Source: Mesodorylaimus sp. YZB2_4 (lineage: Eukaryota > Nematoda > Enoplea > Dorylaimida > Dorylaimidae). Taken from it: a stretch of DNA of 64,000 nucleotides. Positions within the stretch are counted from its first letter, which is position 1. Every line of letters starts with the position of its first letter. The notes under the pieces were generated by a model that searched no databases, had not been told where the DNA came from, and saw only the letters and a list, made by a program, of their open reading frames with translations. Shown here in pieces: positions 4,881 through 59,820 of this stretch. The position numbers and the translations under genes were made by a program. The DNA lies in the NCBI GenBank assembly GCA_030248295.1, contig JASANH010000542.1:124001-188000 (forward strand), written 5' to 3'.

Positions 4881-5934
4881 CAGTCGACTCCACTTAATTG
4901 CATATCGAGTAATCGCATAAATCGCTTTATTGCATAACATTTTTAAGTCTCAATTCTTTTCCTATACCCGCTATGTTAAAAATCTTCGCATAATTGAATA
5001 TCGGATAAATGCATAGCCTTCAACAGAACGACGCATATGCTACATACGCATTCTGCCATCGAATAATTGCATAGCGCCATTGGATATTCGAATAACGAGC
5101 CTCAGTTTCCCACGGTTCCAGTCTCAGATTAGATAAGATTACAAAATCGACGCCGTCATTTCGTAGTAACATTCATTGTCAATCCCAGTTCTTTTCTGGG
5201 AGGTCAATCATTGCGTTTGCCATGGCGGCATCGCCCAGTCAAATTCATAATTCAAAAAAACGCAAGGATTTAAGTTTGAAAGAAAAAATTGAGGTTATTG
5301 ATAAGTCTGAACAACGATTGAGTCAAGCTGAAATCGCGAAACAGTTTGGAATATATCAATCCCAAGTCAGTCGGATCATTGGCAATAAGCAAACCTTGTT
5401 GGAACAATGGCAGCAAAATGCCAATTCGAATCGAAAAAGGCAAGGAACTGGAAAGCATGATCAAGTTGATGATGCAGTATTTGATTGGTTTACCAGAGAA
5501 CGATCACGAAACACTCCAATTAATGGACCTCTTATCAAAGAAAAAGCGCGGGAAATTGCTGATCATTTGGGAATTACACTCAGTGAATCATTGGAGGGAT
5601 GCTAAGTCGATGGAAGCAACGATACAATATTAGCTGGAAAAAAATCATTCGGTGAAAAAAACGATGCTGACTCGGATGCAGCGCGTCATTGGATTGATGA
5701 AGTTTCCCCAAATTTGATTCAAGATTATTAGTAGTGGTCATTGAGAGTTTTTGCGAAAATACTGAATTAAGCATAATGTGCTTGAGCAAACCAAGGTAGC
5801 TTTCATCGCTTATCGAATAACTCATCCATTTATGCATATTATGCAAGTATCCGATGTTTCGGATAAAGGAATAAACCGGTTAATTGCATATAAAATTTTG
5901 GTCTGGAGGCTATGCAATTAAGCGGAGCTGACTG
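4881..5934 (+). mobile_element. deleted pogo/Tigger-type DNA transposon
   Basis: The terminal inverted repeats are cagtcgactccacttaattg at 4881 and its near-perfect reverse complement ending at 5934. They are flanked by TA on both sides (4879-4880 and 5935-5936), as expected for the Tc1-mariner-pogo superfamily. Long internal runs related to the ends (ttaattgcata, gcataattgaat) extend inward. The only gene content is the DNA-binding N-terminus of a transposase at 5222-5605 plus a frameshifted scrap. At 1054 bp the element lacks the DDE catalytic core and cannot move without help. Confidence 0.9.
5222..5605 (+). pseudogene. Tigger-like transposase N-terminus (CENP-B type DNA-binding)
   Basis: The 127-residue frame starts at ATG 5222. 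Residues about 10-60 form a psq/CENP-B N-terminal helix-turn-helix (KEKIEVIDKSEQRLSQAEIA, then FGIYQSQVSRIIGNK). Residues about 75-120 match the second CENP-B/Tc5 helix-turn-helix (AVFDWFTRERSRNTPINGPL). The frame then runs into non-homologous residues and a stop. Shifted by one frame, 5634-5730 still encodes SDAARHWIDEVSPNLIQDY, which resembles the segment just before the DDE domain. The catalytic domain itself is absent. The product could at most be a DNA-binding fragment; it is more likely a pseudogene of the transposon. Confidence 0.85.
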
Positions 5935-8262: not shown

Positions 8263-8825
8263 ATGGCCCATTTGTGGAAATTGTTGATCGTTCTGGTGAT
8301 TATTTGCGAAATGACGATGGCGAATATAAAGCATTCGTTTCGGAGACACAAAGGTGCGTAAGTTTTCAGAGCTCGCAGCATGTGATGAGGTTGAGGTTTA
8401 GGGCTTGTTGCAAAGCGTGTGCTATGTACCTCTCACTCTTTCAAATCCTTCAACTTTAGCTTCCAGTCGACGTTTACGTTGGCATCCATTCGTCGATTCC
8501 TCGATTCAATCATTCGAAGTCCTCACACAGCCTCAACCAGCTCATGATCAACCTTATCTCGAAAAGAAATCCTTCCATACCAATGCCTGGACTGGAGACC
8601 AATCCTTACTCCTCTTACCACGCGCTTCCCAATTCGCTTCTTCACTGTCTTCTCTTCCGGCTAGTCAAGACGGCGACACGTGCCCGAAACGTCCCAGAAA
8701 TTGGCGATCCTTATTCGGCAGGAGTCGATGCCGTAAAAAATGCAAAACAGTAAAAAACTGTGGGCATCACGAAAGTAAATTGTGCATGTGCGATGCGGAA
8801 TGTGGAATGAGCTGTGTTAGAAAAA
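8263..8825 (+). CDS. exons 1-2: signal peptide, linker and WAP-like domain
   Basis: Exon 1 (8263-8353) encodes MAHLWKLLIVLVIICEMTMA, a clear signal peptide, which fixes the start. It overlaps a longer out-of-frame reading that should be ignored. Exon 2 (8460-8825) adds a Ser/Pro-rich linker and, at residues about 104-150, eight cysteines: TCPKRP, SRC, KKC, KNC, KLC, MC, AEC, MSC. The run KNC-GHHESK-LCMCDAECGMSC follows the WAP (whey acidic protein) spacing, with CxC in place of the usual CC. WAP domains of the LEV-9/Hasp type sit at the N-terminus before CCP repeats, which is the arrangement here. Both exons end in phase 1. Confidence 0.8.
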
Positions 8826-11800
8826 GTAAGCACAAAAATTTGCTGGTGGTTGAAGAAAACTGTCATTTGATGGGGAATCCCCTAGCGCTCCTACAGATTG
8901 ACCTGATAGGCCAGTAGGGCACAGATGATGGACGGCATAGGTCCAATGTAATTATTAAAAAATTTTTCGGAGCGGTCAATTAATTTTGGTTTAAAACGTT
9001 TTTGACACTTTGCCTCACAAAACAAAACTCCCAAGTCAAAATAAATGCCCAAATTAGCATATCAGAAAAAGAAAACTGAAAAACCCAAGTGCCAATAGAA
9101 TTATCAGAACAAGAAACTCAAGACACGCCAAAACGAGGTTTGGCGGGAAATTGTAACTTTGAATTTAAATTAGTGCTCCCGCCCTTATCATTTTTAAAAG
9201 AAGGCCAGTAAAAGAAATGCAAAATGCATTTTCTTCCGTTCTGACTCGTTCAATCTGTCTCTTGGCGTACTGTAGACTTGCGCTTTCTATACAATTTTTA
9301 TACTTTGGAATGTAAAGATCTCGACAATGCTTTTTGGATTTTGCAAAGCCGCATTTTAGCCGGTCGATCAGATCAAATCTACATGAAAATATGTCTTGAT
9401 TAAAAAAATTTCCATTTCAGATCTAAACTGTCCTCCTCTTCTGGCCATCAAGCATGGATTCCTGACTTACACAGCAAGTTTTCCATTCGACTCTACTGTG
9501 GCCTACAGTTGCGAGGATAACTTTATTTTACTCGGAAACGCAGAACGACGATGTCAAGGCAATGGACAGTGGTCTGGCACTGAGCCCACTTGCGTCACCT
9601 CAGGTAAGTGGGGCGTGAAAAATTTGAAAAAAGAGTTGGAAGTGGTAGGAGTCGAACTTGTAACTCGATGGGTCGTACTATTGGAATATATCTAGCAGGT
9701 GTACTGCTGAAATGGGTGCCTAGGATTTCTTTAGACGCCCTAAGACAACCTCTGAGACACAATGTAGAAAATTCCTTTTCTCTACCGCCTTGTTTTTGTT
9801 GAAGAGAGGCAATTATTTCTCGACGTGGTCTCGTAGGAGCCTATTTTCGTAGGTAAACACGCTTGATCGATCTTCAATATCACATTCATTGCCAAGAAAC
9901 GCCTTCTCACTGAGCTTCATTTACATAATAGGCGGCCTCTTTGCTTTAATGGGGTGCATTCGCGTCGAAAACACATTTCGGTGCCATTTTCCTGGAGGAA
10001 AAAATGTCGCGCCCTTGCACTTATTGATCATGATAAGCAGTGCCAAATGAAGAAAGCAAATAAACGAAGCAATTTCATCTTTTTTTCTGGCATTCGTACA
10101 AAATTCTTGAAATATTGAACTCGCGCCAGGATGTTCTTAGGAGACAAACCTTAATTACGACTACTTCCCGCCTTTAAAAAATAGCCTCTAGTCGAAAGAA
10201 GAAAATTACGCTTTTGGTGGTGATGAATGTGGGTATACTTTGAAGATTAGCAATCATTCGACTGAGGCTAGCGCATCTTTCTTCCCCCCCCCCCCCCATT
10301 CCAAACGACGACGATTTAGAAAGGATCGAGGAGAATGTTCCAGCTTATGCCCCTGGAAAGCAAATATCCGAGTGACACCCTGGCCATTTCCTCGACTGGC
10401 TAGCACCAACAGCTGACGCCCTCGACTTGAGTATTATAGCTTGCTCAAAGGCGAGAAATTTTGTCGACTTTGAAGGCTAGCCGGTTTTCGTTGAGGAAAA
10501 AGTTTGTGAGTCGAAGACTTATGTTGCCTGTTCACTTTGAGAAATGAGCGTCATTCGAAACGGCTTTGTGTTAGTCAAGTGCTTGGTTTTCATGTAAGGA
10601 CGCAGGTTGTACGTCAAAGCCGAATGATTATAACGACGAGTAGCTGTTGTGCCGTCAACATTAGACGCGCCTACCTTTTTCTGCTTGCTTTTTTCCTTCT
10701 AATATTTAATGCTGGTCACATTCATGGAGCTACCAGGAAGTCACAACATAAGAGTACGTGAGTTATGTTTGATCAGATTTTTTTAACTTAAAAGTGAGTT
10801 GTACAAATAAGCATCTAGGACATAAGATTGTGCAGGTCTAACATTGTATGCGTAACTGGGATATTGACCTAAGAGCTTTCTTATTGCCAAGTGGAATATC
10901 CCAAATAAGCAATGTAGTGCGCAAATGCTAGCAAGACTAATGCGGAGCCCTGTAACTCCCACCTGCGCTTGGTCTAGCTTCGATCTTCTCGCCAAGTGAC
11001 AGAAAAAGCAAGATTCTGGTGCAAATCTGATCACATGTCGCTTGCTTATGACATTAAACCCAGCATATAATGCGAGTTCGCATTCCACTCTGTATCCGTG
11101 GAAGGTGCAGCAGGTACTTTTTAGTTTCCCATCCTAGAACCCATCGAATTCGTTCTCCAGCTTCGAGTAGTTTCCCAGGGGTAGTGTAGCAAGCACTGCG
11201 ACAGTATGCCATGAGTTCCGTTAGTTCATGTTACAATGCTTTGTAGAACTAGTTCCTAGTCAAGTTTCACCTTTTCACTACCTACTCAACAGTCTGTGTA
11301 GACCCATCAGAATGTCACCTGTAAACTGACACTGCGGGTTCTTCCGTGCTGGTGATGTGTCAGTAAGCAGTAAAGAAGGCGCGTGATTTTCTGGTTGATT
11401 CCACTGGCTTCAGGGGTCCCAGTATGCCGCGGGGCAGTACAATGTCCCACCGACTCAAGTCAGTGCAGAAGTTGATCATAATATGTATATCCGTATGTAA
11501 TAAAACCTTTGCCACGGCCCACATCGCTTTTTGAAGGCTAATTAGACAAGATGATATTTCTCACATCTGGTCACATTCATTGAAAGCAATCAAACACGTT
11601 TCCCTAGGCACCCTTTTGAGGTCGAAGTATCTGGGACTACCACTTGCAATGGTGCTGTTTTCTTTAAGACATCCTTTCCATGGTCCTCTCGCGTTAATGG
11701 TATAACTTCAGCAGTTTTAAAAAGCGACATCTGAAACGACTTACTTTGTGCACGAAAGTGTCCCATTTCCAGTCTATGAAAGTGAATGTTCTCTTACTCC

Positions 11801-14800
11801 CTTCGTATTTGGCATTTCAACTTCGCTTTGGCTTCACTGAACTTTTAAATTCCAAACATTTTTGTTCTGTAGTGTAAAATGCAGTTCCAGCAAGAGCTTT
11901 CTTCTGTTGTTTTGCACTGAAATTTCTAAAAACTTTTTTGCCTGGCACTATAAGGACACACTTGTTGTCTCTGGATTTTTTTGGACTGGTGCCAGTTTTG
12001 CATATAGCCTGCCAGCAGCGTAACCTTCTTAGCAGCGTCCGTCTGTGCGTCCCCGCTGGGTGCATCTCCCCACACAAGGACGTCCTGGACAGACACTGAC
12101 TTCCCCAAAAATGGGCGACTGGGCTGTAAAACCCTGTCGGTGTTCGGGCTGAGACTGTCGGATTTCGTCTTTCCACTCGGAGCACCTCTAGGGTACCGGG
12201 TGAGTCACTCACGGCCTGGGGTGCAAGGTCAGCGAGGGTTCATGGCTCGCAAACCGACCTCCATCACCAGGAATCGAACCCGGGACAAATCCAGCCATTC
12301 GCTAGTAAGCCATGCGGATGGCGAACCTCTCGCTGCACCACTGCGGCCGCATTTTTAGCAGCTGGTTGCACCCTGTGAATTCCCGGTAAGCTTAACTCTT
12401 GGGAGTGAACAAAACCCCCAACCAGGCTTCTATGGATAATGCAAGCCTCACTTCCGGCCCCTTTAATAATCATACCTTCACTATGATTGCGATCAGTGTG
12501 CTTTGAATGATGTCAGTACAGTACAGTGCGCAAGACATCTCCATGGCAAGGCCCACTAACCTGCACTTTACATTGAGCTGTAAGCACAACTACATAATTT
12601 TTTGAATGTGATCTCGCAATGATTACCGGCAATGCTTTTATTTTTCCAGCATATAGGTATATCAATAAAGTGGTTAGGGTCTATATATCCTACGAAGTGC
12701 TCTATATATATATGGATATGAATCAATACGAGTGGGCCTCGAGTTCAGACAAGGCCTTTTATTTCTTTAGCCAAATGTGGTCCGCCACCTGAAATACCAT
12801 TCTCCCAGCACGCTTCCTATGGTCAACGTCAATTCGATCAAGGGCAAATGATAAGCTATCATTGTGTTAATGGCTATTATTTATCAAGTGCGCAGGGACT
12901 GACAAAGGCGAAATGTTTGCCCGTAAATGGAACGGCCATTTGGTACGGGCCCGAGATGATATGCTCGCGTAAGTAAAGGTTTTTTAACCACCGATTATGT
13001 TTTGGAAACTTAAGTGCATACTAGTGTAATTTAATTCTGAATGAAAGCCGTTATTTAGTTTTCTTTTTGCTGAGTGACTCCCTCTCAGGAGACATGGCTT
13101 AATACTTTCCTCTCAAATAGAATCGTATCCCGGGAATAGTAAATGAGTGCTATTTTTCTTTGTTGGTTGGGCCCCGCGCGCGTCGCCCCAGTCCCCCACG
13201 GGACTTCCAACCCGTTTTGCCTATAGCCGGCCGGCAGTCATGATATGATAAGCAAGGCAGTGAGGTGACCAGCTCTCACGGCAGCGTCTCTCTGCGTGTC
13301 TCCACTGGGAGCATCTTCACGCGAGGGCATCCTGTAGAGGACACCGACTTCCTCGGACGATGGCGGGTGGACTGCGAACCCTGTCGGAGTTCGACAGCCA
13401 AGACTGTCTACTCGTTTGGCTTCCGTCTCTCCACTCGGAGCACCTCTAGGGTACCGGGTGAGTCACTCACGGCCTGGAGTGCAAGGTCAGCGAGGGTTTA
13501 TGGTTCGCAAGCCGACTTCCATCACCAGGGATCGAACCCGGGGAGGGAGTTCAGCCACTCGCTCCCAAGCAATACGGGGAGACGAACGCCGAACCGCTGC
13601 ACCACCGCGGCCGTCTACATGAGTTCTACCTGGAATTCATTTTATCGGCTACACCAGCTTAGTGTAGCTCAATCTAAAATCTGAAATATTATTGGGAAAA
13701 ACTGTGCCAGCCCCAAATAGACACTTTCACCGCTGTCAAAGTGTTTAAATTTGAAATTCTCGCTTGGGTGGCTTATGCATTAAGAAACAAGCAGACTGGC
13801 GAGCGATCTTACCAGATTTTGCCTAGCATGACAGAGGTCAATATTTATACAGTATCCAAATTTATCGAGGATAAAAACTTGATGAGAAATTGCCGTAGAA
13901 AATTAGCAAAACAAGCTTTAAATTACACCCACCCGCGACGATCTCAATCAATTTGGATCGATTTATTGATCCCAATTAATTTTGATTGCTTACTATTGTA
14001 AGTGGCGCATTTTCATGAGCAGTCAAAGTACCGGAATCGCGGGAATTCAAATTTTTGCTGTCCTGCGAGGTCTATTACAAATATTCCACTGTTTGCGGCA
14101 GAGATAAGAGCCTCATGCTGAATGACTTGCCGTTCGAGGGGTGGGCACATTCTTTTATTGCCATGTTGAGCAGAAGTAAAGCCATTATGTGAAGGTGCAG
14201 TAGATGAAATGTGTAATTACTTCCGTTTTTGCGCATTTAATCAGGCTGAAATGCTTTCACATAGGCGAAATGACTCACTGTACGAATGATTTTCAGCAAT
14301 CAGCTGTGGCCATCCTGGCGACCCACTGAATGGTGATCGGATCGGTGACAGTTTTCAGTACCCGAATACAGTTCGTTACAAATGCCACGAGGGCTTCATC
14401 GCTTATGGATCTTTGTCAAGGCGCTGCTTACCAAACGGGCGTTGGAGTGGAGAAGCACCGACATGCCAGCGTGAGTCCTACTTCACACTGTCAGCACGAG
14501 TATTGCTACTCGTGTATGCCTGTCATGGTCTCATCAGTGTACCTGCCTGAGGAAAGAATGCTGCTGACAAATGAGATTCAGTGCAACTTTTTTGAACACT
14601 CATATTCGCTGGTGTTAATCAGTAAGCCTGATTGAGACGGGGCCTGAACCTAGGATAAAAATGTCCTTTAAGTCATTGACGCCAATTTTCCATAGATCCC
14701 TAATTGCACGCCGATTATTTTAAATAGGGTTGACTTGAGGATCCAGGACTAACAAGCGAGGGCGCCCGTAAACGAAGATTTTTAGTAGCTTATGATGTGA

Positions 14801-17800
14801 GCCTGGCCATTGTAGGCGAGGCTTTTCTAATAAGCATATTTCTAAAAATGATAGTATAACAAGGATTGAGCACGTTTGTAGCTGTGCAGTGCCCGAAACC
14901 AGAAGACCCACTTCATGGTCGAGTGCTCGGCACATCCTTGGATTATCGAGCCTCCGTCACGTACACATGCGAAGAAGGGCACAGATTAGTCGGCCAACAA
15001 AAACGGTATTGTTTGGCCGACAGGACTTGGAGTGGTCTTTCGCCTAGGTGCGAGGAAATCCATTGCGATCCGCCGCCAGCACCTGAAAATGGCTATATCG
15101 AAGGGTCGGACACAGCGTTCGGTGCCGAAATACTGTACAGATGTTTGGACGATATACAGCCCCGGGGCGCAGAGAGAGCGAGGTGTCAGCGGGATGGCAC
15201 ATGGTCACTGCCACCGCCAAAGTGTTTAGGTGAGTGTCGTCGTATGTTCGTTGTCCTGTTTATGCCCAGCGACTCGGGGGTACTTTTTCAGAAATAATGT
15301 TTGATTGATACCCATATGCCAAAAAATCACTAAGTGCAAAAATATCAGTTTTGAGAAAACTACGTTTAAAAATTTTGACTTATATCTATAAGTGTGTGTG
15401 TGTGTTAATCGTAGCCTGCCCCAAACTACTGATAATAGGTTAATAGTAAAGTTAAGTCGGCCATCTTAAATTTGCGTCTTCTGCTGATTTCATGCAGCAT
15501 GGTCGCCCTTTAGCTGCATTTAACACACCTCGCGGATGAAGAAATGATAACAATGCTGTCAACTATGCGGCAAAAAGCGCTTGGCATGACTTTATTATTT
15601 ATTCAAACACATTATGGTGTGAATGAACAAGATCATTCTCATCAGCAAATCTAATATTTTCTCACAAAACAGATTTACGGATCACTATCGATTTAGTCTG
15701 CATCGGGCCCAACAAGTACAACTAATTGTCATCAACTGCACAATGTTTTCTTCCCTTTATTCGAGCATTTTTTTAAGCAGCCAAAACGCATTCTTTTGCA
15801 GAAAAAAGACGCAGTTGGTGCCTTACGCCTGCTATCTTTGGCAGATGGCGCGTTTTGGCAGATAAAAATTAAAATAGTGGGTATTTTGGGGTTCAGTAAA
15901 CTGATGTCATACTGTAGATATGGTTTCGTCGTTTTGGCAGATGAAACTTCTGAGTGCTCGAAATATTTACAGTATATCCTCAGCATTTGGTGCCTTTTTT
16001 CACAATTTGGTTGCCGCCTTCTGGCAAATAGGTATCGTAATTGACTTTTTGCACGCAATTAACTGCCCTTTTTTAAGGGCCCCTTTGAGATATGTTTACC
16101 CGAGACACACCAACTTTCTGACCGCTGTCGGGTATGCATACTACTAAAAATTGAACCACATGGCTTGCAAGAATATAATCAAATACAAGTTCTAAAATTT
16201 CACTCAAACAAGGGAAATGATTAGTCAAGTGCCTGAAAAATTCTGAACTTGAGAGGGCTGTTCAAAACCAGACAATGAGTATTCTGACTGTTTCTGGTTC
16301 AAATGACTAAAAAATCAGTCCTTCCTAAATTCATTTTTAGCCAATTGTAAAATCCCTCATGTCGATCACGGGCAGTCGTTATTGGGGCCAGTGGGTCGAA
16401 CAGTTCACCATGGGCTACAAATGGAAATCGAGTGCGAACGTGGCTACGAGCACGAGAGTCGAATTTATAGCGAGTGCAACAATGGATATTGGGAACCTCC
16501 ACCACCAAGATGTGTTCCTGGTAAGACGATTCTGGCTACTTTTACCCAAATTTCGTTAAACGAGATAAATTTTCATGTTTTAGTGCGATGTTCTGAGTGG
16601 CCGCGGAATTATCCGAATTCGATTGTCCTCTTTGTCAAAACTGATTACAACGCAATCGCCAGATACATGTGCAAGCCAGGCTTCAGGATGGCTGGCGGCG
16701 ATGGAATGTTCAGGTGCTTGAATGGGAACTGGACTGGAAAAGATTTCGTCTGTCAAGAAGGTAGGCGTTTTGAGTGCCTGTTTGGCCAGTTTGTGTGCGC
16801 GCAGGAACAGCTATATGTGTAGCACGCTACCCTTACTTCTATGATGGTGCACCCCTTAGCGTGGGTCAGAGTTGGAAGGTTAGGACTTCCAATTCTGACC
16901 CACGCTTCCAACTCTGATCTGCTGCCTAAAAACAGCGAAACATCTACCTGACTTGAGACGTTCTCTGGGGCCGTCCTCGAGTGATGATCACCAGGAGAAT
17001 CGCTGCCAGCTCTACACGCTGCTTCGCACTAGTTTGCCGAGCTCTGACCACCTGCAGTCAAAGACACGTGAAACATCAAGCTCTGGTCGCATGAGCAGTT
17101 GCGCAGCCCAGTGCCAGCTCAGGGTCGCACTGCATGATGTGCTGACTATCTTTGACTGTCTTATCGCTATTCGTGGGAATGGTCATTGGAATTTTTGCAC
17201 CACGGCACGCAGACCAAGTCTTCCGACCTTCCAGCTGGAACACGATGCCTGATGCTCTCAGCTGCTGGCCCTGTGCAAAGGATTGATTGCCAGACGAGCC
17301 ACCATGCCCACATAAATGAAATAGATTTTCAATGAAATTTGTTGACCTCCATCCTTTCACTTTCTGCAGTGTTTCTAGGATCTCTAAAAACTATCAAAAA
17401 GTATCAACAATGTCATGCAACCTTTTTTAGTCACTTGTGAAAATCCACGCAAAGTTGATGAAATAAAGGACTTCAATGGTTCCATCAAATTAGAAGGCTC
17501 GATGGGCACCTACGAATATCACGATCATTTTCAACAAGTCGGCGAAAATCGTCAAATACAATTCGAATGTCCAAAAGAATTCCAGTTGATAGGTAATACA
17601 ATTTTTGTGCAGTCAAAACAATATTTTGTCAAGATGCGCTGTTTTAGGTGGGCCAAATAAGGCAACTTGTCTGAACGGTACGTGGATGCCCAGATTCAGA
17701 CCCGTTTGCGCACCCCAAGAGCACCCTCCCTTGGAGGAGCGCACAGATTGGAGTAATCTGATAAGATCTAAACGCAATGTGGGCCAGTCTACATTGCATG

Positions 17801-20800
17801 AAAATAAAATACCGGAAAATGAAGTTGGAGATCATTCATTTTGGAATCGTGTGCGTCGTTCGGCCACCGAGACTTCTCAATATGTGGTCTTGTCAGTGAG
17901 ACCACCAAAAAGGAAGCGAAAACATAGTAAGTAATAGCATTTTTGGTGTTCTTGCTAGTTGAGCTCCATGGTTCTGCTTGTTCCAAATGACTAACAAAAA
18001 GTCACAGGGGTCGTCAAGATTCCGATTGTTGTGAAGAAATTCAGGAGCGCGCTTTTCCTTGCACTCTGCAGTAAGCCTCACTGGCTTTAGTTTTTTTGAG
18101 CGCGAAGCAAGCTGCGATCGTCTGATGGTTTTCAGTAACGCTTTTTACACCCCTCCCCAGTATTTTCATTTCTGGAACCTTCAATTGTCTTTTTCCAAGA
18201 ATTTGATCAAGCATTTTTTCTAGACCACAGGAGTAAAAAGAGAGAACAATTGGACACAGACGGCACGTTTTCTTACAGTTCGGGATGTAAGTCATTCAAA
18301 ACACTCTCAACTTCGCTCATTATTAAAAGCTTAATTTTTAGCCTCTTGTCCACCCATTCGAGAAAATGAGCGACAAAAATATGCGGTAATTAAATTCAGT
18401 CCGCTACCGGATGGACGTTTCTTGAGTGGTAGCGAAGTGATGATTCGATGCCAAGCTGGTTACGAATTGCCAAATCCAAATCAGAATATGGTCACGTGCA
18501 AGAATAATTCGTGGGTGCCACTTATGCCCATGTGCGCCCCCAGTAAGTTTTTCTGATAAAGAACCAGTCGGAAAGGCTTTGGGCACCGCATCTTGCATTG
18601 CTTCATGACATACTTTTCCAAATGGTGTGTGTGCCACTTTTCACGGACCTGATTGGACTGCCGGTGAGCAGCAAGCCAGACGAAAACCATGGATGCTAGA
18701 CACAATTTTCTTCTTATTGATCATGCAGATCATGGCTTTCACGATGCAAAAAGTACACTACTTACCTCGAGTTATTAGAATTCATGAGAGTCAGACTCCC
18801 AAGTTGCGCTAAACGAAATGCGTAACAAAGCGTTCCCCGACAATAGAGCAATGAACCATTCTTACCCCCCGAAAAGTTTTCTATCACAAACTCGATCACG
18901 AACTTTCTCCAAAAAAAATGCGTCAGGAGGTTTTTGAACTGTCCGTCACTGATCTTGATCATTCCTACTTTTGACTTACTTATTGGCCGTCACTATGGGT
19001 TATAAAATTTGTCTTCCAGAAAACTGCAAGCTTCCTGTACGACCTAACTCGTTTTTTACTCGGCGTGGAGAAATTGTGAGCAGTGGACACGAAGTAGGGC
19101 ATCGCGAAGGGGCCAAATTATTTTGTCTTCGTGGTTATGAATTGCGAGGCGATGATGCATTGGAGTGCAATTTGGGATCGTGGTTGAAACCAGCTGGTGA
19201 ATGTGTGCCGCGTAAGTGTCGTGGACCTTTTTCATGCGGATGCTAGGAGCCTGCATGATAAATGATTGTGTTTATGAGTTGTATCAAAATGAAAGCCCCA
19301 TTGAGATAAAACTTATGCATTTTTCATCGCTCCATATTTAGTCTTAGATAAGGCGCTCCGAAATTTTTTAAAAGCACCGGAAACCTGGCTTTTCATTCTA
19401 AAAAATGGGCCAATATTGAGGTGCACACTCTAAATTATTGAACGAATACGGAGCGATGAAAACACTGAGCTGCGTTAGGGCGAGTAGCACTGCTCTACTC
19501 AGTGATCCTCAAGACTTGTCAAACGCAGTGATAACTATAGCGATAAGAGCCTGATTGTCAGCCTGACTGAGCGCTGATCGCTCTCAGGTGTGCGCTCTAC
19601 GACGGCCTCAACTGCTTATATCAAAAGTGCGCTACACTCAAATGACCTCACCGATCTGTTAACCGCAGTAATCTGCAATACGCTCATCAAATTGTGTCTT
19701 ACAGAATCGTGCGCTGTTCCAATACTCCGCCACGGCCAGTACAGAAATGAATCCATGCCACGACACTCGATTGAGCACGCGACGAAAATCGATTTTTACT
19801 GTCAACATGGATATTACGCGAATCCGGCCCAGGGCGAGGTGCATTGCAGTTATGGAACTCTGAGACCGCACGACCCAGAATGCAATGAAGGTACAGTTGA
19901 TATTTTTCGGTAGTTTTGACTAAAACTGAGCTAATGCTCAAACATTTAGATGCTAATCTGCAGAAAAGTGTTTACTTATCGATCGGCTGTACCCGCCCTT
20001 ACGACATTGACAATGCGTGGGTGTACATCAGAGAATCTTCTACGGAACGTCGATTACTTATCAGTCCCCAATTATCAGTTTTTCCAAATCGAACAATCGT
20101 CCACTACAAGTGCTCGGAGTCATTGGACGACGGATACGATCTTCGTGTCAGAACGCGTCGATCAGCGCTCAGTTCACTTTACAATGCTGACGAAGCGCAC
20201 GCTATTGAATGCACCGATGGCGAGTGGGTGGCGCTGCTAGTCGAATGTGGTAGGTTGTGCATTTATCACTTCATGAATGGTTTTTCTGGAGGTTTCAATA
20301 ATCTTCATTGCAGCCCCGTCTGGTCGTTTGCCGCCAGGTGTCGAAAGTAATTCAACTCGCTTACTTAATTTACAACTGTTTGGGGCAAATAAATTGCCTT
20401 GTACACGTCCGAATGCGAGTGATATAAGGGGTATCGTATTTGAAATCAACGAGTGGTTATTTCCGCATGGATATCGGTTGCGGGTGCATTGCATGAACGA
20501 CGACACGAGATCATGGTTTGTCAGATGCAAACGAGGAAGCTGGAGGGGATTCGAAGAACATTCGTGCGCACGTAAGCCTATTGTAATCTCTGCTTTTTGG
20601 AACAAAAGGCTCAATAAAACAAAAAAATTAAACGCTGTGCTGGTAATTTGGGAGGCATGGGTCAACTTCCAACACAAGGTCTAAAATTTGTTGATTCATT
20701 GAGGAATATTGACACTGGTTTGACTTTGTTTGGTCTAATGTAGGTGTTCTGGGTAGACCATCCACATAGGTTCCGTGTTTCATCGAAAGTCTCCCAGGGA

Positions 20801-23800
20801 GGCATTAAATTTCAATTCGTCTCCAGACAGGGCACATTTGAGAAGACTCACATTCCCAAGGTCTGCACATTTTAGCTGTTTCTTGTGTTATTTCCGTCCA
20901 AACTACCAAAAGGCAAAATCCTAAATAAACAGAGGTCTCATGATCAGATGGGTCTCAGACCCGCGATCACCTGCTGTAGTTTTTAGAGACAAATTCAGTC
21001 TAGCAAAGCTAAACCAAGGTTAACTTGGGCCGCAAGATTCAACAGGCCTAGGGTAGGGGATATTAGAGGGCGTGACCTTTAATTTTGCAGCCATCGCATT
21101 CGACGCATTTTTTAGCTTTGGAGCTCTCACAGCAAACCACTGAATCACCCGAGCACAGCTGCGAATTCAATCCGATCAATTTCAAATCTATGATCGTGTT
21201 TTATGAGCAGCGAAAAGAGCCAATCGTATTTAAACAACAGTTGCCCGAGGGCGCTATGCTGACTGTTCGCTGTCAGCACGTCGGTCTATATCAGTTCACT
21301 GGCACAAAGAAATTGACTTGTCGAGGCGGAGCATGGCAAGGTGGAACGCCGAGGTGTAGATCGTTGGGCATACCATGGAAAGAAGGTAAAGAACTTCTCT
21401 GGTGGAACCAAAAGTGCCATGCCCTTTGTAGGTCAAGCACCACCAATCGCTTATCGAGCTACGGAAGGCGATTTGGCGCTGACCAATGATGGGGATATCG
21501 TGTTGAGGAAATCATCAACATTGGAACTTGATTGCTTGGTACCAAGACAGAGGAGTCAGCCGTATTGGGTGAGATTTTTTGAAACTTTTGCTGATTGGGT
21601 TTTGTCGCCCAGTAGGTCTACCTTCTTTTTCTGGCCGTCAGAGATCCTGGTGCTGAGTGATAGGTGGGGCCGAGAGGCGGCCAGCTCGCTAGGTATGTTC
21701 CCTTTGGCACCTCCAATAGGAGCATCTCCGCCTAACTGGAGCATCCTGCGCCAGGTCCGAGATCGGGTACAAAACTTGTACCAAACTTGACCCTGTGCCA
21801 GGCCAAACTCCAGGTAGCGTGCAGGTGCAAGGCGAGCGACTGAATTACTAATCGCTGCCAAGGATCGACCCCTTTCTCTGAGACGGGGCAGTGCTCGAAC
21901 GAGCGAACTAAACTACCATTTCTCCGGCTACCTGCTGGGCTGCTGGCTGGGCCAGAATAGCCACCGCGGCCGAACTGACAATGAGTGAATGGTTTGAAAA
22001 ATGAGAAAATTCTCGCCAAACGAATCATGCACATTTAAAATAGGATCAAGGAGACCATAAGCAAATACCTTAATTTCGTAGAGTTGGTCATAGGATCTTT
22101 GGACATACATCGCACCAGAGACCTGAGAATCCTTGCAGGTCACCCAAGACTCTTGCCACTCTCGAACGCTCCCTTTTCCTTCGGCTGTTAGTGCCATAAT
22201 CCCCGTTTCAGGATTACTCCAACTCATATCGGAAGTACCCTCAACAATGGGCCCAATTCGTTCTCGAGCCGTGGGAGACTGGTCGTCCAGAAGAGACAAA
22301 CAATTCTGTTGAATTGGACGCCTTTCGTCTGACCATCTTCATGGCCAGGCCAGAAGATTCGGGTATTTTCCATTGCATAACTCCCAGCGGCTTACGTCAT
22401 TCGGTCCGTGTCCGCGTGGCCGATGTGAATTGTCCAAATTACGAACGCGTATTCAGGACGAATCGAACACGTCCCCGCACCAGTACCCCATCCATGAGGT
22501 CTCCTCACATGGCACCTTCGGCAGTCACTCCGAGTATTCAAGCCAGCGACGGCAATGCTTTCGGTTCAGTTTTGCATTTTTCATGTCCAGTGGGTTACAA
22601 AGTCGTCGGTGCTAGACGCGCATATTGTTTGGAAAACGGCGAATGGTCGCACGCGATGCCCACATGCGAAAGTACCAATGCTAATTGATCATTTTTTAGA
22701 TCAGTGCACCAGAACAACTGTTCTGCCTTTTTTACGGTTTGCTGTTTGCAAATTTTTTGTTCGCTTTGTAGTATATATTTTGCGGAATAAATTTGCGTTG
22801 CACCCGCAACCAATGCTTACCATATTTGTTGCGCTTGTAGATGCGCCCTCGATTTGAGATTTGATAACCTTGCTTTTGAGGGTAGCACACAGTTATATCA
22901 AACGTAGAATGTTTTTAACTCTCAAAAAATAGCTAATGAAACAATGCTTACTAGCTGAGAACTGCAGTAAGCATTACCGCAGTACACCATGCTGTCTGTC
23001 ACACTACGCATTAACTTCGGCCTGGAACAGGAAATTACACGTGTACTGGACGTGGTTTGACTTGAAGAAAGTTTTCGGTCTAGCGTTTCTATGACACCAT
23101 TCTCACTATATTATTCAGCGTGCTCTGCCGCACTTTCGATGAAATGTTTGATGAAAGAATGTTAGACAGCTCCTCACACTACATTGACAGTGCAAGGTGG
23201 GGCGTCAAGAGCTCCTATATTAGCGGGACTCCTTAGCCAGTACAGTAAGCTACACATACAGTACCCACCGTCCTTGCCACCGTACACTCTGCACTGACAT
23301 AAGACTGTCTAAAGCCCAAAGTATAGTTGGATGCGATGCGTCAAATAAGCGTGCGATGCGACACTTTTGGGACAACTGACAATGTGAAAAAGTGCCTAAA
23401 ACGTCGCATCGCATCGGACTATACTTTCAGCTTAAGTCTTTTGTCAAATAAACTTTCGGCGGGAAATACATTTTAAATTGACCGATACTCTTTTTAACGT
23501 TTTTAGTCGTCCGCTGCCCATCCTTGTCACCGACGCACCCAGCCATGAAAATAAATGTCACTTCTAACGTGTACAATAGTGTGGCCATGTTCAGTTGCGC
23601 CGTGGGCTTCCGACTCGAAGGCCCGCGTTATGTGCAATGCAATGAGAGTGGAGGCTGGAGCGATGCAACGCCTAATTGTACAGGTACGTGAAAACTGCAT
23701 GATGAACTCCGTCATCCTGCGAGTCCCTCAATTGCAGTGGCCACCTGCCTGCCGCCTGATCTGCCGTTCGGGGCTCGGACGGTATCAGCCCTGCAGAATT

Positions 23801-24513
23801 ACACTTACGGCCATGTAGCTAGATTTATGTGCGAAGAAGGGTATATGCAAACTGGACCTGATTTTGCTGTCTGCAATCAATATGGTTTGTGGTCAAATCC
23901 ACCACCGGAATGTAAGAGCTTTTTTGCTTTGGTTGATGTCCCTGACCGATGCGCATAAACTTCTAAGAGTGAAGTCAATCTGACAGATTTTTCGTCAAGT
24001 CTTCGTCTTCGTTTTCGTGAAGTAAAATGGGCTTGATCAAGGGTATGCAAGAGGCTTCAAGAATTTGAACAAAAATTTTAAAATTTTAAAATCCACCTGC
24101 AGAAAATGCAAATGTTAAAACCACTGAAAAACAAATGTGCCATCACAAATCAAAAAGGTCTTCTTTCACGGTCAGACTAGGATATGCAGCTGGACTGCTG
24201 ATAATGGTATCAATAGTTTTTCGGGTAATCAGATCACAAAATTGTCCACTCAGGCCAACGCATCTGTTTTTTCCCTGGGATGCCTGACAATGGTGATACA
24301 ACATCGGCAGCCACTCGGACGTATTTTGTGGGCAGAAGCATCGTGTACTATTGTCGCAGTGGATACAGGATGCAAGGAAGACCCGACTTAAAGTGCTTAC
24401 CGACGGGCAAATGGTCGACGGACATTCCGCGATGCCAACCAGTCAGTGTCGAAAGTGATTTGGTAGACTCCCATGTTGATTTCCCAATGAGACCCTACGT
24501 TCTAGGCGGATAA
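8263..24513 (+). CDS. WAP, CCP x18 and Ig domain secreted protein (LEV-9/Hasp- and Hig-like)
   Basis: I read 22 exons: 8263-8353, 8460-8825, 9421-9603, 12771-12968, 14297-14470, 14882-15229, 16341-16520, 16584-16760, 17431-17592, 17648-17926, 18224-18286, 18342-18542, 19020-19211, 19705-19890, 19950-20249, 20314-20571, 21116-21385, 21432-21568, 22212-22671, 23507-23683, 23738-23911 and 24254-24513. Every junction has GT and AG. All introns are phase 1 except the one inside the Ig domain, which is phase 0, so the frame stays open for about 1611 codons to TAA. Domain order is signal peptide, Ser-rich linker, WAP-like, CCP1-8, basic linker, CCP9-14, Ig, CCP15-18. WAP plus CCPs is the layout of LEV-9 and fly Hasp; Ig plus CCPs is that of Hikaru genki. 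All are extracellular scaffolds at cholinergic synapses. It could still be two transcripts split near 17926-18342. AATAAA at 25172 is a possible poly(A) signal. Confidence 0.85.
9421..17647 (+). CDS. exons 3-9: CCP (sushi) domains 1-8
   Basis: The exons are listed in the gene entry; this block runs to the acceptor of exon 10. Most exons encode one CCP of about 58-65 residues with four cysteines and the conserved tryptophan, for example CPPLLAIKHG...WSGTEPTC in exon 3. Exon 6 (14882-15229) carries two CCPs (4 and 5). CCP8 is split by a 55-base intron after ECPKEFQLIG and finishes in exon 10 at NGTWMPRFRPVC. Exon 4 (12771-12968) has no ATG and is easily missed, but reads CGPPPEIPFSQHASYGQ through YGPEMICSR with good splice sites. 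Eight CCPs after a WAP domain is the number I recall for C. elegans LEV-9. Confidence 0.85.
12030..12356 (-). repeat. tRNA-derived SINE, family A, copy A1
   Basis: It lies in intron 3 of the sushi gene. Read on the minus strand, the head is gcggccgcagtggtgcagcg with box B gggttcgattcc. The body shares aggtgctccgagtgg, accctcgctgaccttgca and the tail with the copies at 13157-13616 and 37547-37900. The long segment between the box A and box B regions suggests descent from a class II (Leu/Ser-like) tRNA. Confidence 0.8.
13157..13616 (-). repeat. tRNA-derived SINE, family A, copy A2 (fullest)
   Basis: This is the fullest family A copy, in intron 4 of the sushi gene. On the minus strand it has a tRNA-like head (gcggtggtgcagcggttcgg, box B gggttcgatccc) and a body of about 350 bases. 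It ends with aagtcccgtgggggactggg and a short A-rich tail (aacaaagaaaaata). The 3' half, including caaaacgggttggaagtccc, also occurs in family B. Confidence 0.85.
16859..16905. repeat. near-perfect 20-bp hairpin in intron 8
   Basis: gcgtgggtcagagttggaag is followed by a 7-base loop (gttagga) and its reverse complement with a single G-T pair. The first half of the arm recurs again immediately after it (ttccaactctgatct). The hairpin sits in an intron of the sushi gene; its origin is unknown. Confidence 0.9.
17648..18286 (+). CDS. exons 10-11: end of CCP8 and basic linker with furin-type sites
   Basis: Exon 10 (17648-17926) finishes CCP8 at residue about 647, then encodes a non-CCP linker that continues through exon 11 (18224-18286) to about residue 740. 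The linker contains RSKR (about 666-669) and RVRR (about 694-697), both fitting the furin consensus R-X-K/R-R, and a basic cluster PPKRKRKH at about 712-719. Cleavage here would separate a WAP-CCP1-8 product from the CCP9-14-Ig-CCP product. C-terminal processing of LEV-9 has been reported to be needed for receptor clustering (from memory). Cleavage of this protein is inference. Confidence 0.7.
18342..21385 (+). CDS. exons 12-17: CCP domains 9-14
   Basis: There are six CCP-like exons. Exons 12-14 are typical (SCPPIRENE..., NCKLPVRPN..., SCAVPILRHG...). Exons 15-17 are divergent: 15 (GCTRPYDIDNAWVY...) and 16 (PCTRPNASDIRG...) have enlarged loops and fewer hallmarks, and 15 contains another furin-like RTRR within a loop. 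Exon 17 begins at the second of two candidate acceptors (tttttag at 21115), because only that choice keeps phase 1 and avoids a stop. All six exons are phase 1-1. Relatives of this segment in LEV-9 or Hig are unclear to me. Confidence 0.75.
21432..22671 (+). CDS. exons 18-19: Ig-like domain and CCP15, Hikaru genki-like
   Basis: Exon 18 (21432-21568) begins the Ig domain (APPIAYRATEGDLALTNDGD ... LELDCLVPR ... PYW) and stops in phase 0 at TGG. Exon 19 (22212-22671) resumes in phase 0 with YRKYPQQWAQF and reaches the Ig hallmark RPEDSGIFHCITPSGLRHSV. A Ser/Thr/Pro linker and CCP15 follow (FGSVLHFSCPVGYKVVG ... NGEWSHAMPTC). The order Ig then CCP, and the wording PEDSG-F-C-TP....HSV, resemble fly Hikaru genki. 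The intron between the two Ig exons holds a SINE at about 21625-21976. Confidence 0.8.
21625..21976 (-). repeat. tRNA-derived SINE, family C, inside the Ig-splitting intron
   Basis: Read on the minus strand it starts cggccgcggtggctattctg, a head like those of families A and B. It has a degenerate box B region (ggggtcgatccttgg) and a body containing gcaggatgctcc. It ends in a purine-rich ggccagaaaaagaagg. It lies wholly within the intron between exons 18 and 19. Confidence 0.6.
23312..23435. repeat. small MITE, family M1, copy 1
   Basis: The element is about 124 bp, with ends aagcccaaagtatagttgga and ggactatactttcagctt as terminal inverted repeats of about 30 bp containing gatgcgatgcg. The second copy is at 38926-39088, so it is a mobile family. 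It lies in intron 19 of the sushi gene. Confidence 0.85.
23507..24513 (+). CDS. exons 20-22: CCP domains 16-18 and C-terminus
   Basis: Exon 20 (23507-23683) encodes RCPSLSPTHPAMKINV...NESGGWSDATPNC. Exon 21 (23738-23911) encodes TCLPPDLPFGARTVSA...GLWSNPPPEC. Exon 22 (24254-24513) encodes RICFFPGMPDNGDTTS...TGKWSTDIPRC and then about 24 residues to the TAA stop at 24511-24513. The exon 22 acceptor is tccactcag; it completes the TGC codon begun by exon 21. A GT near 24451 could mark a further intron, so the last residues are less certain. Confidence 0.8.
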
Positions 24514-25115: not shown

Positions 25116-26834
25116 TAATTCGAAGTTGTGAGTTATAGTATGCACATGCAGTATGTCCAAGCAATGTAACAAATAAATAGCAGAAAGACAAACTGACATT
25201 GGCACAAACTACCCTTCCTTATGCGGGGAGTAGACGGCATTCTCGATCGCGCATGTTGCTCAGGGAGTGTCGCTTGCGAACACTCACCGCCGTGGTGTAC
25301 TCACATGTCGGGGTGTGCAGCTTGTACGCGAGTCTGATTGCGAATAATCAGCGTGATTTCTTTCAGGGTCCCAGCAAGCAAGCAAGCAGCAAAGAAATGT
25401 CGATAGAGAATGCTTATGACTTTTCGTTTTTTTTAAGTTTTCGGTTTCGTTTTCGCTGGTTCTTTTATGCTGTAGATTGTTTAGATGGTTTTCTGCTAAA
25501 TATTCGCCACCATGAATCTTTGACGGAACAGGTTTTTCGATGTTTCTTGAAATTACATAAGCCTGCACATACTGTACTGTGTATTATTCCTGTTATCAGC
25601 CGTGGTCAAAGTGTTGCAGAGTTGCTGTGCGCAGACACTGATCGCCCGTGTTTTTCACTGGTATACTACGTGCTAGCGGAGAATTTAAAAGATTTTCTTT
25701 GAAGTGTTTGCTCCTTTTAACGAAAAAAAAAAAAAATATAGATGGAATCCAACATTGCTCCATGTGATGCTCCCTCCCATCGCTCTTTCATGTAATACCA
25801 ACCTATTTCACGCCTATTTTGTTGGGTATTATCGTCATCAGCAACATTTTAATTCTGATTGTTCTGCTCTGCCCAGAGCGAGAGCAGAACAGGAACATGT
25901 GCTTGCTTTTGATAGCGAGAACTGATGCAGAGCACGGGGTATCGGACTGTGTTCAGCAGCTCTTTACTTGGAATACTTTGAGGGCATTATCGACGATGAT
26001 TCACTCAGCAGAATTTGTAACCTCTCAGTGAAACCAGCTGCAACTGTTTGCATAGACTGGTTCAGCCTGAACTTTGTTTGGTCTAAGTTGTATCAGGAGA
26101 CTGCATAGTCGTCATAATCGCAATTTCGACATCGTGTTTTTGTATCTCCTTTGTGATTTGTCTCGTATGTTTATCACTCGGATGTTTCTTACGATTAGAC
26201 CTTGAGTGCGCGTCAGTGTTTGTCTAATGAATGATATATGATGATGAGCATACTAATGTTCATTGATATCTTTTGGGATATCAATATTTTTCAAAATATC
26301 CCCTTTACTTTTCGCAAAATGGTAAAGGTCAACAAAACATTTGTGAAAGAATCACTTGAGTTTGGAGTGTAGAAATCAGAAATGGGCTCGTCAAGCTGGG
26401 TATGCTTTCATAGAGTGCGCGTGATGCAAAAAACCAAACGATGGTGACTCCTTCATGGACCCGCTGGGCCGCCCTGACGCCAAGGATCGGTATCCCTCTC
26501 AGCTTACCAGGGCCCTGCCATATCCAGTGTTGGTGGTGGGTTCTACGAGCGGCCAGCCGCACGTAGTGGGCATGCCAGGATTCGAGGAGTGCAAGGTTCT
26601 CATCGTCGATCTCGCTCAGGGGAGGATGCGGGAACTTGTACGGCCCAGGGGTCGAGCGGAGTAGCTTTAGTCCATCCCAGACGGAGGTCACTGAAAGTAT
26701 GAGCGTCGCACATGCGCCGTTAGAAACCCGTCTTACCGAGACTCTTGCATTCAGAATAGTCCACAACCAATCAACTCCAAGATTCAGCTTCTGTATTTAT
26801 TCGCATAGTTTTTCTTGATAAGGACTCGGGGCCA

Positions 26835-28132: not shown

Positions 28133-30847
28133 ATGGCATCGTTAAATACAATAGTCACCTGGGTATTAGTTGCAGTGATGTGCAGTATTGTTATTAAAAT
28201 AATGTGAGTAATTTTATAAATTATTTTTGTGCCCATTTCGTACGCTGTGGATTTCTCACAAATTTTGAGGTTCAAACACTGTAAAAATTTTAACAATCGC
28301 AGTTTTCAATTTTCTGGTTTTTCGTTAACAGCTTCATTTTGCCGAAATGCCAAATTAGATTCTTAAACTGCGAGATAGAATTTATTTTGCAGAAATAAAA
28401 TTTTTTCAAGGCGAATGTAAAATTTAATTATTTTAGGTTGATGCTAGACACGAATAAGAAAGCCTATGGGCATATACCTGGCCCATGTCGGTATGTGGAA
28501 GGCATAAGTAAGGATCTGAGTCGCGGACTTTTCCTTTTTCAAAGTTCCCGCCATTTTTTAGATAGAGGAGCACGAGATATAGAATTGATTTTACCCGATG
28601 GCATCGCCTTGATCACATCTGGCGGTCGGTTAGTCAACAATAGTGAAACAGCAAAGTTCAAGGGTCGCGTGTACGTTTATGAATGGCCAGATGTAAAAGA
28701 AGGTGTGAAGAAGGGACCCAATGTCAAAGAAGATGTGCCAAAAGCTATCAAAGTCAATATTGTGCCTGGCGAAGATGGGGAACTCGATTTGAACACGTTC
28801 AATCCGCAGGGAATATCGGCTTATGTCAGCAAAGGTAAGACAGGTGGTCACACTGGCACTGGCACTATAATGGCACATCGACGCTGCAAGCAGTAGCAGT
28901 GCCATCTAACGATATAGCGCAAACCTGGCATGATTGTGGAGTGACTTGGGTCATCTGGACTGACTTTGCATTGGTTATGATGGCACATACAAATGCACAG
29001 AGGCTGCATTATTTGGCATGCACGATCACTACATCGCAGATCGCCGATAAACCTGTTAAAGATTTTCCTCTATTGAAACAATCCGCGTACTTTTTTGCAG
29101 GTCGTATCAACGTCTACATCGTTAATCATGCCCCGGATGGAGATGCAGTTGAGTCGTTCCTTTACGACAAAAAGAAACGAACCCTTTATCATTCGAAATC
29201 AATAAGAAGTGATGCTATCTATGCAGCCTCCGATCTCGTTGCCGTCGGCCCAGATAAATTTTATGTGACAAACTCGCATTATTTCAAAAGTTGGTGGCTG
29301 CAACTGATGGAAATCTATTTGTTACTAAATTTGGGAAATATTGTTTATTATGATGGCAAAGCGACTGTGGTCGACAAATGGTTGTCCATGCCGACTGGAA
29401 TGGCATCGGATAAATTTAGGAAGTGAGAACTATTTTGCGTGATGCTGAAATTTTTTTAAATTAAGTATTTCAGACATTTATACGTTTCAAATGCATTGCA
29501 AGAATTCGTTCGTCTTTACAACATTAGCGGAGATCAGAGTTTGGTCAAACATGTGGTACAGATAATGATAATGTGGCCCTGAGAGATAAGACCTGATGAA
29601 CATACCTGTTTCAGGACATGAGCATGATGTCAACACCAGAGCACGTATTCGTGGATCCCGAATCCAATGAACTGTGGGTCGGAACACATCCGGTTATGCA
29701 CGAGTATCTGAAACACATTCCGGCACCAAAGACGACCTTCGCGTCATCACAGGTCAGTTGATCTGCAGTGCAGACAGCATTGAGCTTATAAGCTTTTCTC
29801 TGGACCACCTGCAGGTGACCATTCACGTGAGTGCACTCTCTCAGAATGCATTAAAAAATTTTAGCTAGAAAAGCGAAAACCCACAAATTGCAAGGAGAAA
29901 AACCTCACTGGTGTTGAAATCTTGAAATCACATTTTCCCCACAAATTCACAAATCAAATTAAAAATCTAGTACACAAAATTAATGACTATGAAATAGACA
30001 GACACAGATCACGTTTCCGCAAGGAGCGTAAAATATAGTTTCAGCTACAAGCTTTAACTGATTAGTGAGAAAGGCTTAGGCGTTCTGGCACTTCAATTTT
30101 GACTGAAAAATTGGTAACGTACCGCCTGATTATGTACTGACAGTATCTATGTCTTGCATGCCATGTTTACTCTTTTTCCCATTTGAGATGAAATTTTAAT
30201 TGGGGATTAGACGGGGGGGGTCGGAATTTGAAGGGAGTAAGTTTAGGTTGGCCTCAGCATATTTTTCCTACAAGTGCTTGAGAAATTTTAGCCCGGGCAT
30301 TCAATATGACCTGGGCCACGTTTCAATCGGCCGCTGGGGGACCCGTAGTGTATGAAGAGTACTGTATTTTGATCTTCATTGATCTCTTTGCCCTATGGGA
30401 TTTTTGACCTTCTATGCCAGTCGTTACAAGTAGGACTGGCAAGACCAAAAATAGAACATTACTGTTGATAGTCAGCATTTTTGGGCTTTGCCGTGATTTG
30501 CCTAAAAAACAAACAAAACTGTGCATCGCCAGTATTCTGTTTTCCTTTGCCACCTACTAAACGTCTCGTTTGAATTTCCCGCCAAAAGTGCGAGCCTAAT
30601 TCAAATTCAAACAATTTCAGGAGGTAACCGAATCTTTGCATTCGTGTGCAACTATGCGTTTCAGGTTATCCACATCAAATTGCAAGGCGAAATGGATCGG
30701 TGGGTTTTAGCTGAGACATTCGCCGATGATGGTCGCCTTTTAAACGCCAGTAGCGTTGTGATTCGTCACCAAAATCAACTTCTCATTGGCAGCATGTTCA
30801 ACAAGTTACTTTTATGCGATCTTATGCATGAAGATTTCCAAAATTAG
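28133..30847 (+). CDS. paraoxonase-like membrane-anchored protein (PON/MEC-6/POML family)
   Basis: Seven exons: 28133-28203, 28437-28507, 28562-28834, 29101-29422, 29474-29555, 29615-29752 and 30665-30847, giving about 379 residues. The N-terminus (IVTWVLVAVMCSIVIKI) is a signal anchor. PON landmarks appear in order: GPCRYVEGI, ILPDGIALITSG, FNPQGISAY, VNHAPDG, LVAVGPDKFYVTNSHYF, VDPESNELWVGTHP and LLIGSMFNKLLLCDL. Cysteines in CRYVEG and LLLCDL match the PON1 disulfide pair. Positions that bind calcium or act in catalysis in PON1 are changed: E53 to R, H115 to Q, N168 to S, N224 to T, D269-N270 to E-H. D54, D169 and H134 remain. I expect no lactonase activity; a chaperone-like role as in MEC-6/POML-1 (DEG/ENaC channel partners in the ER) is inference. 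The intron at 28508-28561 is 54 bases and stop-free, so its retention would stay in frame. Confidence 0.85.
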
Positions 30848-31370
30848 AAAAAGCATCAAGCCTTACTCAAATTTAAGCATTTTTCTGTCCACAAAACGTG
30901 CCCTGGTCTGTGATTTGTGAGAATTTACTACTTCGCTTATATGCAAACACCAAAATGTTCTCGTCTTAAGGTTGAGTCAGTGTTCGTTTCGCGTCTCATG
31001 TCAGTAGGTATTGGTCCAGTTCGTTTATGTGTTTTTGTATGTTGTGGCAGTCGGTACTTGCTGTGAGGGCATTTTTAGGTCGCTGTTAGTTGAACTTATT
31101 TTAAAAGTTTTCGACTTCTGGCATTGAGTGGAGTCGTTGAGTGGAAAATAAAATTTTTATTTTTTCAACCAGATTTGAGTGGAATTGACTGCCTACGCAA
31201 TTCAGCCACTCAGACTTCCCTCTGGTTACCCTAATGGTGTCAGAGTGAAAAGAGAACTGGATTTTAACAACATTGGCGTGAATAATTGCTAACTTCGGCA
31301 AAGAATAGAATAAAAGTGGGAAGACACATACTCCACTTGTTAGTCGTAGGTCGGAAAGTGGTTTGTAAAC

Positions 31371-59157: not shown

Positions 59158-59820
59158 AAGCCGCGGTGGCTCACTTAGTTAAGGCGTTGGTCACACATTG
59201 CTTGGGCCAACAACCCTGACCGGGAGGCCGCAATTCTGTTGCGGCTGAGGACGGCTGTTTAGTAAGTCCGTCGCTGGCCATGCCCACCTGGCTCTGGGCG
59301 ACTCGGATGCCGAACGAGTGAAGAATTAGGAAACTGGTTCCAAAACACCAGTCGGGAAGGTCCCTCTTCTCGCCCAGTATCATCCTGGGATGCTGGTGTG
59401 GAGGTGCTCCTAGTGAAGACACACGGAGGGAAACTGCTGTGAGAGCTGTTCACCTAATGGCCTTGCTTATCGTATTGTAATAGGTGGAACAGCCCTACAT
59501 TGGAGGAGATACCGCGGGGAGCGGATGGACTCAGATATCTTTAGGCAGGTCACCTAGTTGTAGGTGCCTGAGACATCAACCCGACGGGTTTCAGCCTCGC
59601 CTGGAGGAGCGTATCGAGCGGCCAACAAAGGCAACTGATACGCTGTATGCGGCGGCCAGTCAAGGCAACCAGATACACTACCTTCTCCACAGGCCAAGCA
59701 CGCCTACTACAGTATCAAGACTGCTGACCGGCTATTGACATAATGGCAGGAAAGTCCCGTGGGGAACTGGGGCGGCACAAGGCTTAACCCAAAAAATTAA
59801 AAAAAAAGAAAATTGGGTCA
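59158..59820 (+). repeat. tRNA-derived SINE, family B, copy B2
   Basis: The head gccgcggtggctcacttagt and the body (caccagtcgggaaggtccct, ggaggtgctcctagtgaaga) match B1. About 230 bases not found in B1 follow (59510-59740), and then the shared 3' end gtcccgtggggaactggggc with an A-rich tail near 59800. Confidence 0.8.

Follow-up and report, generated by a model that had tools for sequence, protein, structure and literature searches.

In the cholinergic cleft of flies Hig is captured by Hasp, and in C. elegans LEV-9 clusters acetylcholine receptors. The locus described here raises the question of whether a single nematode gene can carry the layouts of all these proteins in one reading frame and, if so, how such a gene is best understood. 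It lies in a 64,000-nucleotide stretch of Mesodorylaimus sp. YZB2_4 DNA, which we call the window and to which all positions refer. The gene is probably a long member of the LEV-9/Hasp type that has a Hig-like tail and, within that tail, an Ig domain that is not listed for Hasp.

We rebuilt the gene from the raw sequence and observed that 22 exons (8263-24513, forward strand) join into one stop-free frame of 1611 codons, with the start ATG at 8263 and the terminal TAA at 24511-24513. All 21 introns have GT-AG ends, and 20 of them are of phase 1, the exception being intron 18, within the Ig, which is of phase 0. For exon 17, an acceptor at 21091 broke the frame, and the acceptor is at 21116 instead. 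The original prediction, that 22 exons splice in phase, was borne out, since this independent rebuild gave the same positions for the start (8263), exon 2, the end of exon 10 (17926), the beginning of exon 12 (18342), exon 19 and the end (24513). The predicted order of leader, WAP-like piece, CCP1-8, linker, CCP9-14, Ig and CCP15-18 was also confirmed from the frame, with the WAP-like piece at 13.0 bits against a Pfam cut-off of 20.8. The coordinates are collected in Table 1.

Table 1. Features of the CCP gene, its possible 3' ends and the interspersed repeat (positions in the window)
Feature	Positions	Strand	Basis
Exon 1: ATG and hydrophobic leader (signal peptide by eye)	8263..8353	+	translation; 9 of 10 residues strongly hydrophobic in one window
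Exon 2: stretch free of known domains, then WAP-like piece with eight cysteines	8460..8825	+	translation; Pfam WAP 13.0 bits
Exons 3-8: CCP1-CCP7, with CCP4 and CCP5 both in exon 6	9421..16760	+	translation, Sushi scores
CCP8: exon 9 plus the start of exon 10	17431..17712	+	Sushi 24.7 bits
Basic linker: remaining exon 10 (to 17926) and exon 11 (18224-18286)	17713..18286	+	motif scan, codon score
Exons 12-14: CCP9-CCP11	18342..19890	+	CCP9 and CCP10 above Sushi cut-off; CCP11 below (18.8 bits)
Exons 15-17: CCP12-CCP14, degenerate	19950..21385	+	CCP12 12.8 bits; CCP13 without Sushi match; CCP14 16.5 bits
Ig (signature LTIFMARPEDSGIFHC): exon 18 plus the start of exon 19, roughly aa 1209-1327	21432..22427	+	Pfam, solved-structure search
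CCP15: remainder of exon 19	22428..22671	+	Sushi scan
Exons 20-22: CCP16-CCP18, 24-residue tail, TAA 24511-24513	23507..24513	+	translation, Sushi scan
AATAAA behind the stop met on reading through exon 19; may mark an alternative 3' end	22786..22791	+	motif scan
AATAAA, next one past the final stop, putative poly(A) signal for a transcript of full length	25172..25177	+	motif scan
Interspersed repeat copies	12032-12349, 13281-13613, 37567-37901, 48292-48420, 50075-50133, 59388-59475

Introns 3 and 4 of the CCP gene each hold a copy of an interspersed repeat, whose full and partial copies in the window measure up to about 330 bases and are 76-86% alike. By eye the repeat has a tRNA B-box-like stretch; ARAGORN found no tRNA in 11900-13700.

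We compared the whole protein with Pfam at E<=0.001, and Sushi was the only family recovered (E 6.4e-116), with 11 stretches passing individually. At the level of single domains, 14 of the 18 CCPs passed the Sushi cut-off (12 of the 16 that were scanned singly, together with CCP3 and CCP4 from the genome search), and these include every member of CCP1-8, the array directly behind the WAP-like piece. Three others (CCP11, CCP12 and CCP14) fell below the cut-off, and CCP13 gave no Sushi match in the single-domain Pfam scan. Four cysteines are present in all 18 CCPs and a tryptophan in 17. A loose CCP cysteine/tryptophan pattern occurred 17 times in the protein, as against a mean of 2.2 and a maximum of 6 in 500 shuffles. 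The reversed protein, however, contains it 10 times as well; by itself the pattern is therefore unspecific, and it is the Pfam scores that carry the case. Among the CCPs, likeness was 41% for CCP3/4, 40% for CCP15/16 and 36% for CCP16/17; CCP18 was closest to CCP3 (36%), and CCP14 reached at most 26% with any other CCP. These likenesses gave no answer about origin.

The N-terminal leader is hydrophobic by composition and reads by eye as a predicted signal peptide. The WAP-like piece has, again by eye, eight cysteines (Pfam WAP, E 0.13); it found no WAP match among solved structures and is missing from the 46 WAP matches that a search at E<=10 returned from its own genome. The Ig was likewise under the Pfam cut-offs (V-set, E 0.029; Ig_3, E 0.044). 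Against solved structures it matched 316 sequences at E<=10 (best E 0.001), and all 60 listed of these were antibody, nanobody or TCR V domains. The reversed Ig, as a control, gave two matches, both non-Ig and both above E 1. The order of CCP, Ig and four CCPs is present as CCP14, Ig and CCP15-18, with CCP14 and the Ig each below the Pfam cut-off.

A review (PMC9083331) gives LEV-9 a single WAP with eight CCPs and activation through a C-terminal cleavage. For Hasp it gives a WAP with as many as 17 CCPs, and for Hig an Ig with five CCPs, the Ig being listed for Hig and not for Hasp; processing is reported there for both Hig and Hasp. A long array is thus nothing unusual in Hasp, and CCP9-18 need not derive from Hig, so that the Ig alone is unexpected. 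It is quite plausible, if somewhat short of probable, that we are looking at an ordinary full-length Hasp/LEV-9 orthologue, with an Ig that many or all of the long forms possess and that annotation has missed; this overlaps with the explanation we prefer. The likeness to Hig would then reflect old paralogy or an independent assembly from common domains. The CCP number reported for Hasp is close to the 18 seen here (PMC9083331), and since neither the WAP-like piece nor the Ig of this protein is recovered by Pfam at E<=0.001, an Ig of the fly protein could be missed likewise. On the other side, no Ig is evidenced in Hasp by the review, which assigns one to Hig only (PMC9083331). In the literature searched, whose coverage ended short of the primary Hasp and Hig papers, we met no WAP-CCP protein described as having an Ig, and we make no claim of novelty.

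We also weighed whether the protein has anything to do with synapses. The N half matched 106 solved-structure sequences at E<=0.001, and the best of these were complement receptors and factor H, so that the CCP fold alone is demonstrated by them. CG10186 has itself been wrongly grouped in one family with factor H merely as CCP arrays (PMC3927616), which makes layout alone a weak guide to orthology, and it is from layout that orthology to LEV-9, Hasp and Hig is suggested here. A CCP-rich matrix protein with a function unrelated to cholinergic synapses would fit the wide distribution of CCP arrays, these structural matches and a WAP under its cut-off. We consider it unlikely, as LEV-9 and Hasp, the WAP-plus-CCP proteins described in the review, are both synaptic (PMC9083331).

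The linker between CCP8 and CCP9 carries the furin-type motifs RSKR (residue 666) and RVRR (694) and the basic runs KRKRK and KKR at 714 and 724, as found by motif scan. The protein contains four R-x-K/R-R motifs, of which two are within the linker; the other two are RTRR inside CCP12 (1001) and RCKR inside CCP13 (1104). The codon log-likelihood of the linker was +5.8 bits across 82 codons, starting at 17744, which favours a single gene. For exon 11 alone the score was +1.1, which is not decisive, being reached by 13.4% of 524 open intronic windows.

The linker is also where the locus might divide into two adjacent genes or an operon, with a LEV-9-like gene that stops around exon 10 and a Hig-like one that begins around exon 12. 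When the exon 10 donor is read through, a TAA is met immediately at 17932-17934, and an unspliced form would thus stop as a LEV-9-sized protein. The original prediction had named a transcript start with a signal peptide, or a poly(A) end, between 17926 and 18342 as the sign of two genes. Between 17600 and 18542 no ATG frame resembled a leader, and AATAAA was absent from 17927-18341, though there is an ATTAAA at 18322, in intron 11. A hydrophobic ATG frame does occur at 18693 in intron 12, but 14 such frames were counted in the 17.1 kb scanned (the gene's true start included), which places it within background. Splice donor and acceptor scores are good around exons 10, 11 and 12, and exon 11 is in phase; the agreement of exon phases counts for little, as phase 1 is the usual one in CCP exons. 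SL1, at up to one mismatch, was not found in the genome, which also speaks against an operon and leads us to guess that the lineage lies outside those with canonical SL1. On the points above, which come from DNA alone, a transcript spanning exons 10-12 is presumed, and we regard two genes as quite improbable.

The 3' end of the gene may not be the same in all transcripts. Of the 21 donors that of exon 19 scores lowest (2.14, leave-one-out matrix), and of the acceptors that of exon 22 (-0.49, leave-one-out matrix). Read-through of exon 19 leads to a stop at 22686-22688. With the weak donor, this stop and the AATAAA behind it, CCP16-18 are possibly missing from some or all transcripts, and a shorter form terminating after CCP15 may be expected.

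Other features of the window and of the genome were noted alongside. Downstream of the CCP gene, at 28399-31805, there is a paraoxonase/arylesterase-like frame (PF01731, E 9e-16, 28839-29423), and the frames 28399-28893 and 31350-31802 near it had no Pfam match. Nematode MEC-6-type proteins are of this paraoxonase/arylesterase-like kind. On the reverse strand, 46113-51135 contains a piece of a leishmanolysin-type peptidase (PF01457, E 1e-10, 46116-46838), and the frame 50155-51135, which had no Pfam match, is leishmanolysin-related by eye. A frame at 5096-5605 with CENP-B N-terminal and Tc5 transposase DNA-binding domains is probably a transposon, and overlapping frames at 61193-62780 resemble, by eye, the reverse transcriptase of a decayed non-LTR retrotransposon. 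In the genome at large, PF01484, the N-terminal family of cuticle collagens, has 133 matches; we take this family to be nematode-specific, and the matches mark the genome as a nematode's. Four places match the 18S query at 89-98%, the best of them (L048) being a full SSU by Rfam that looks nematode-like, and two contigs (C32 and C295) carry tandem 5S rRNA genes, many of them spaced about 304 bases apart.

The same genome, of 145 Mb in 1067 contigs, was searched for a separate Hig or Hasp gene. The search with Sushi, run at E<=10, scores best candidates only. Of its 48 matches, 13 belong to this gene and 30 to genes or frames with a different architecture; the other five, weak single matches (E 0.002 to 1.2) on C14, C36, C50 (308 kb), C122 and C994, stood outside the inspection. 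Among the 43 of 48 places inspected we found no separate Hig-like gene, an absence that is provisional because of the way the search scores. Candidates were judged by reading their translations, and the gene names used for them are tentative. On this basis we rejected as Hig a lectin-CCP gene on C8, presumably furrowed-like; a CUB/CCP/EGF gene on C141 and another on C55, the latter with an Ig that stands among EGF and HYR-like parts; CCPs with a hydrophobic span and a PTYEEA frame downstream (C121); a CCP-EGF-WAP-Ig arrangement (C87); and genes of different architecture on C114 and on C104, of which we take the C104 one to be pappalysin-like. The places on C88, C230 and C50 (215 kb), for each of which one frame was seen, were also of other architecture and are presumably SUSD2/Mesh-like. 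The C80 candidate was rejected as a DEG/ENaC-like channel with CCPs. Its translations (L046, C80:185000-189999) place several CCPs beside DEG/ENaC-like channel exons, an unusual combination.

We also used the Ig together with CCP15 as a query against the genome. Outside this gene the best match was on C141 (E 0.0018); it covers the end of the Ig piece with an internal stop, and the translations there are EGF and CCP with no Ig, so it was rejected. The 46 WAP matches share a contig with a Sushi match just on C55 (110 kb apart) and C87. Since the WAP-like piece of our gene was itself missed by the WAP search, that search could also overlook another gene whose WAP has diverged as far, and the Sushi search is the better test for a second gene.

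The original prediction had offered two possible histories, a natural fusion of the interacting partners Hasp and Hig or the splitting of one ancestral gene. The part of it that describes one frame with a LEV-9-like front and a Hig-order tail stood, and no separate Hig-like locus turned up in the 43 of 48 Sushi places; the fusion itself is a possible reading and not the simplest one. Leafhopper Hig, according to PMC7180231, is a protein of 636 aa with five CCPs, divided into parts CCP1, IG and CCP2 (IG-CCP2 293-631; CCP2 396-631), and as the 236 residues of the CCP2 part fit four CCPs, a Hig order of CCP, Ig and four CCPs is suggested. Homologues of Hig are reported across insects and in no other arthropods or vertebrates (PMC4411065), nematodes not being named in that passage; a fusion of Hasp and Hig within a nematode is on this account the less likely direction. 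A lineage-specific fusion of once-separate genes would explain the complete Hig order of the tail (by the PMC7180231 layout) and the lack of another Hig-like locus among the Sushi places inspected, but with Hig so distributed (PMC4411065) and Hasp long already (PMC9083331) we consider it very improbable.

We therefore return to one long gene of LEV-9/Hasp layout, and on balance we lean towards the following account of it. The gene would encode a large CCP protein of the long-form LEV-9/Hasp layout with an Ig near the C-terminus, and the precursor would be secreted. Furin-like proteases may cut the basic linker between CCP8 and CCP9, which would release a LEV-9-sized N part (the WAP-like piece and CCP1-8) and a Hig-like C part. 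The two parts could jointly hold acetylcholine receptors in the cholinergic cleft. If one precursor supplies both layouts, this would also offer a reason for the processing that LEV-9, Hasp and Hig have in common, as the cut may separate a LEV-9 part from a Hig part. Annotators should in that case check long Hasp and LEV-9 isoforms for overlooked Ig domains.

Whether the long gene is the ancestral ecdysozoan state is a more speculative matter. LEV-9/Hasp and Hig would then once have been halves of one cleaved precursor, which this nematode would have kept whole, with insect Hig as a split or duplicated tail; we think this rather unlikely. In flies Hasp arrives first and then captures Hig (PMC8505678). 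If the ancestral state were true, the present two-protein scaffold would preserve an old within-protein contact. Should one precursor indeed give both layouts, it would become possible to test how the two-part scaffold of insects arose.

Compared with the known systems, and by layout only, the front half has the layout of LEV-9, the whole is near Hasp in CCP count, and the last six domains are in Hig order. LEV-9 of C. elegans is secreted and has a WAP with eight CCPs; here a WAP-like piece under the Pfam cut-off and eight CCPs are followed by the basic linker, and ten more CCPs and an Ig continue in the same frame. With Hasp of Drosophila (CG10186) the protein shares a long CCP array, which in Hasp stands behind a WAP and here behind the WAP-like piece, but by hand count it has 18 CCPs, and CCP14 is separated from CCP15 by an Ig, a domain that the review does not list for Hasp. 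With insect Hig it shares, at the C-terminal end, a CCP, an Ig and four CCPs, the leafhopper layout being deduced from published coordinates. Insect Hig, however, is a separate five-CCP protein with a gene of its own, whereas in this nematode these domains form the end of a longer frame of 18 CCPs that runs upstream to CCP1 and the WAP-like piece.
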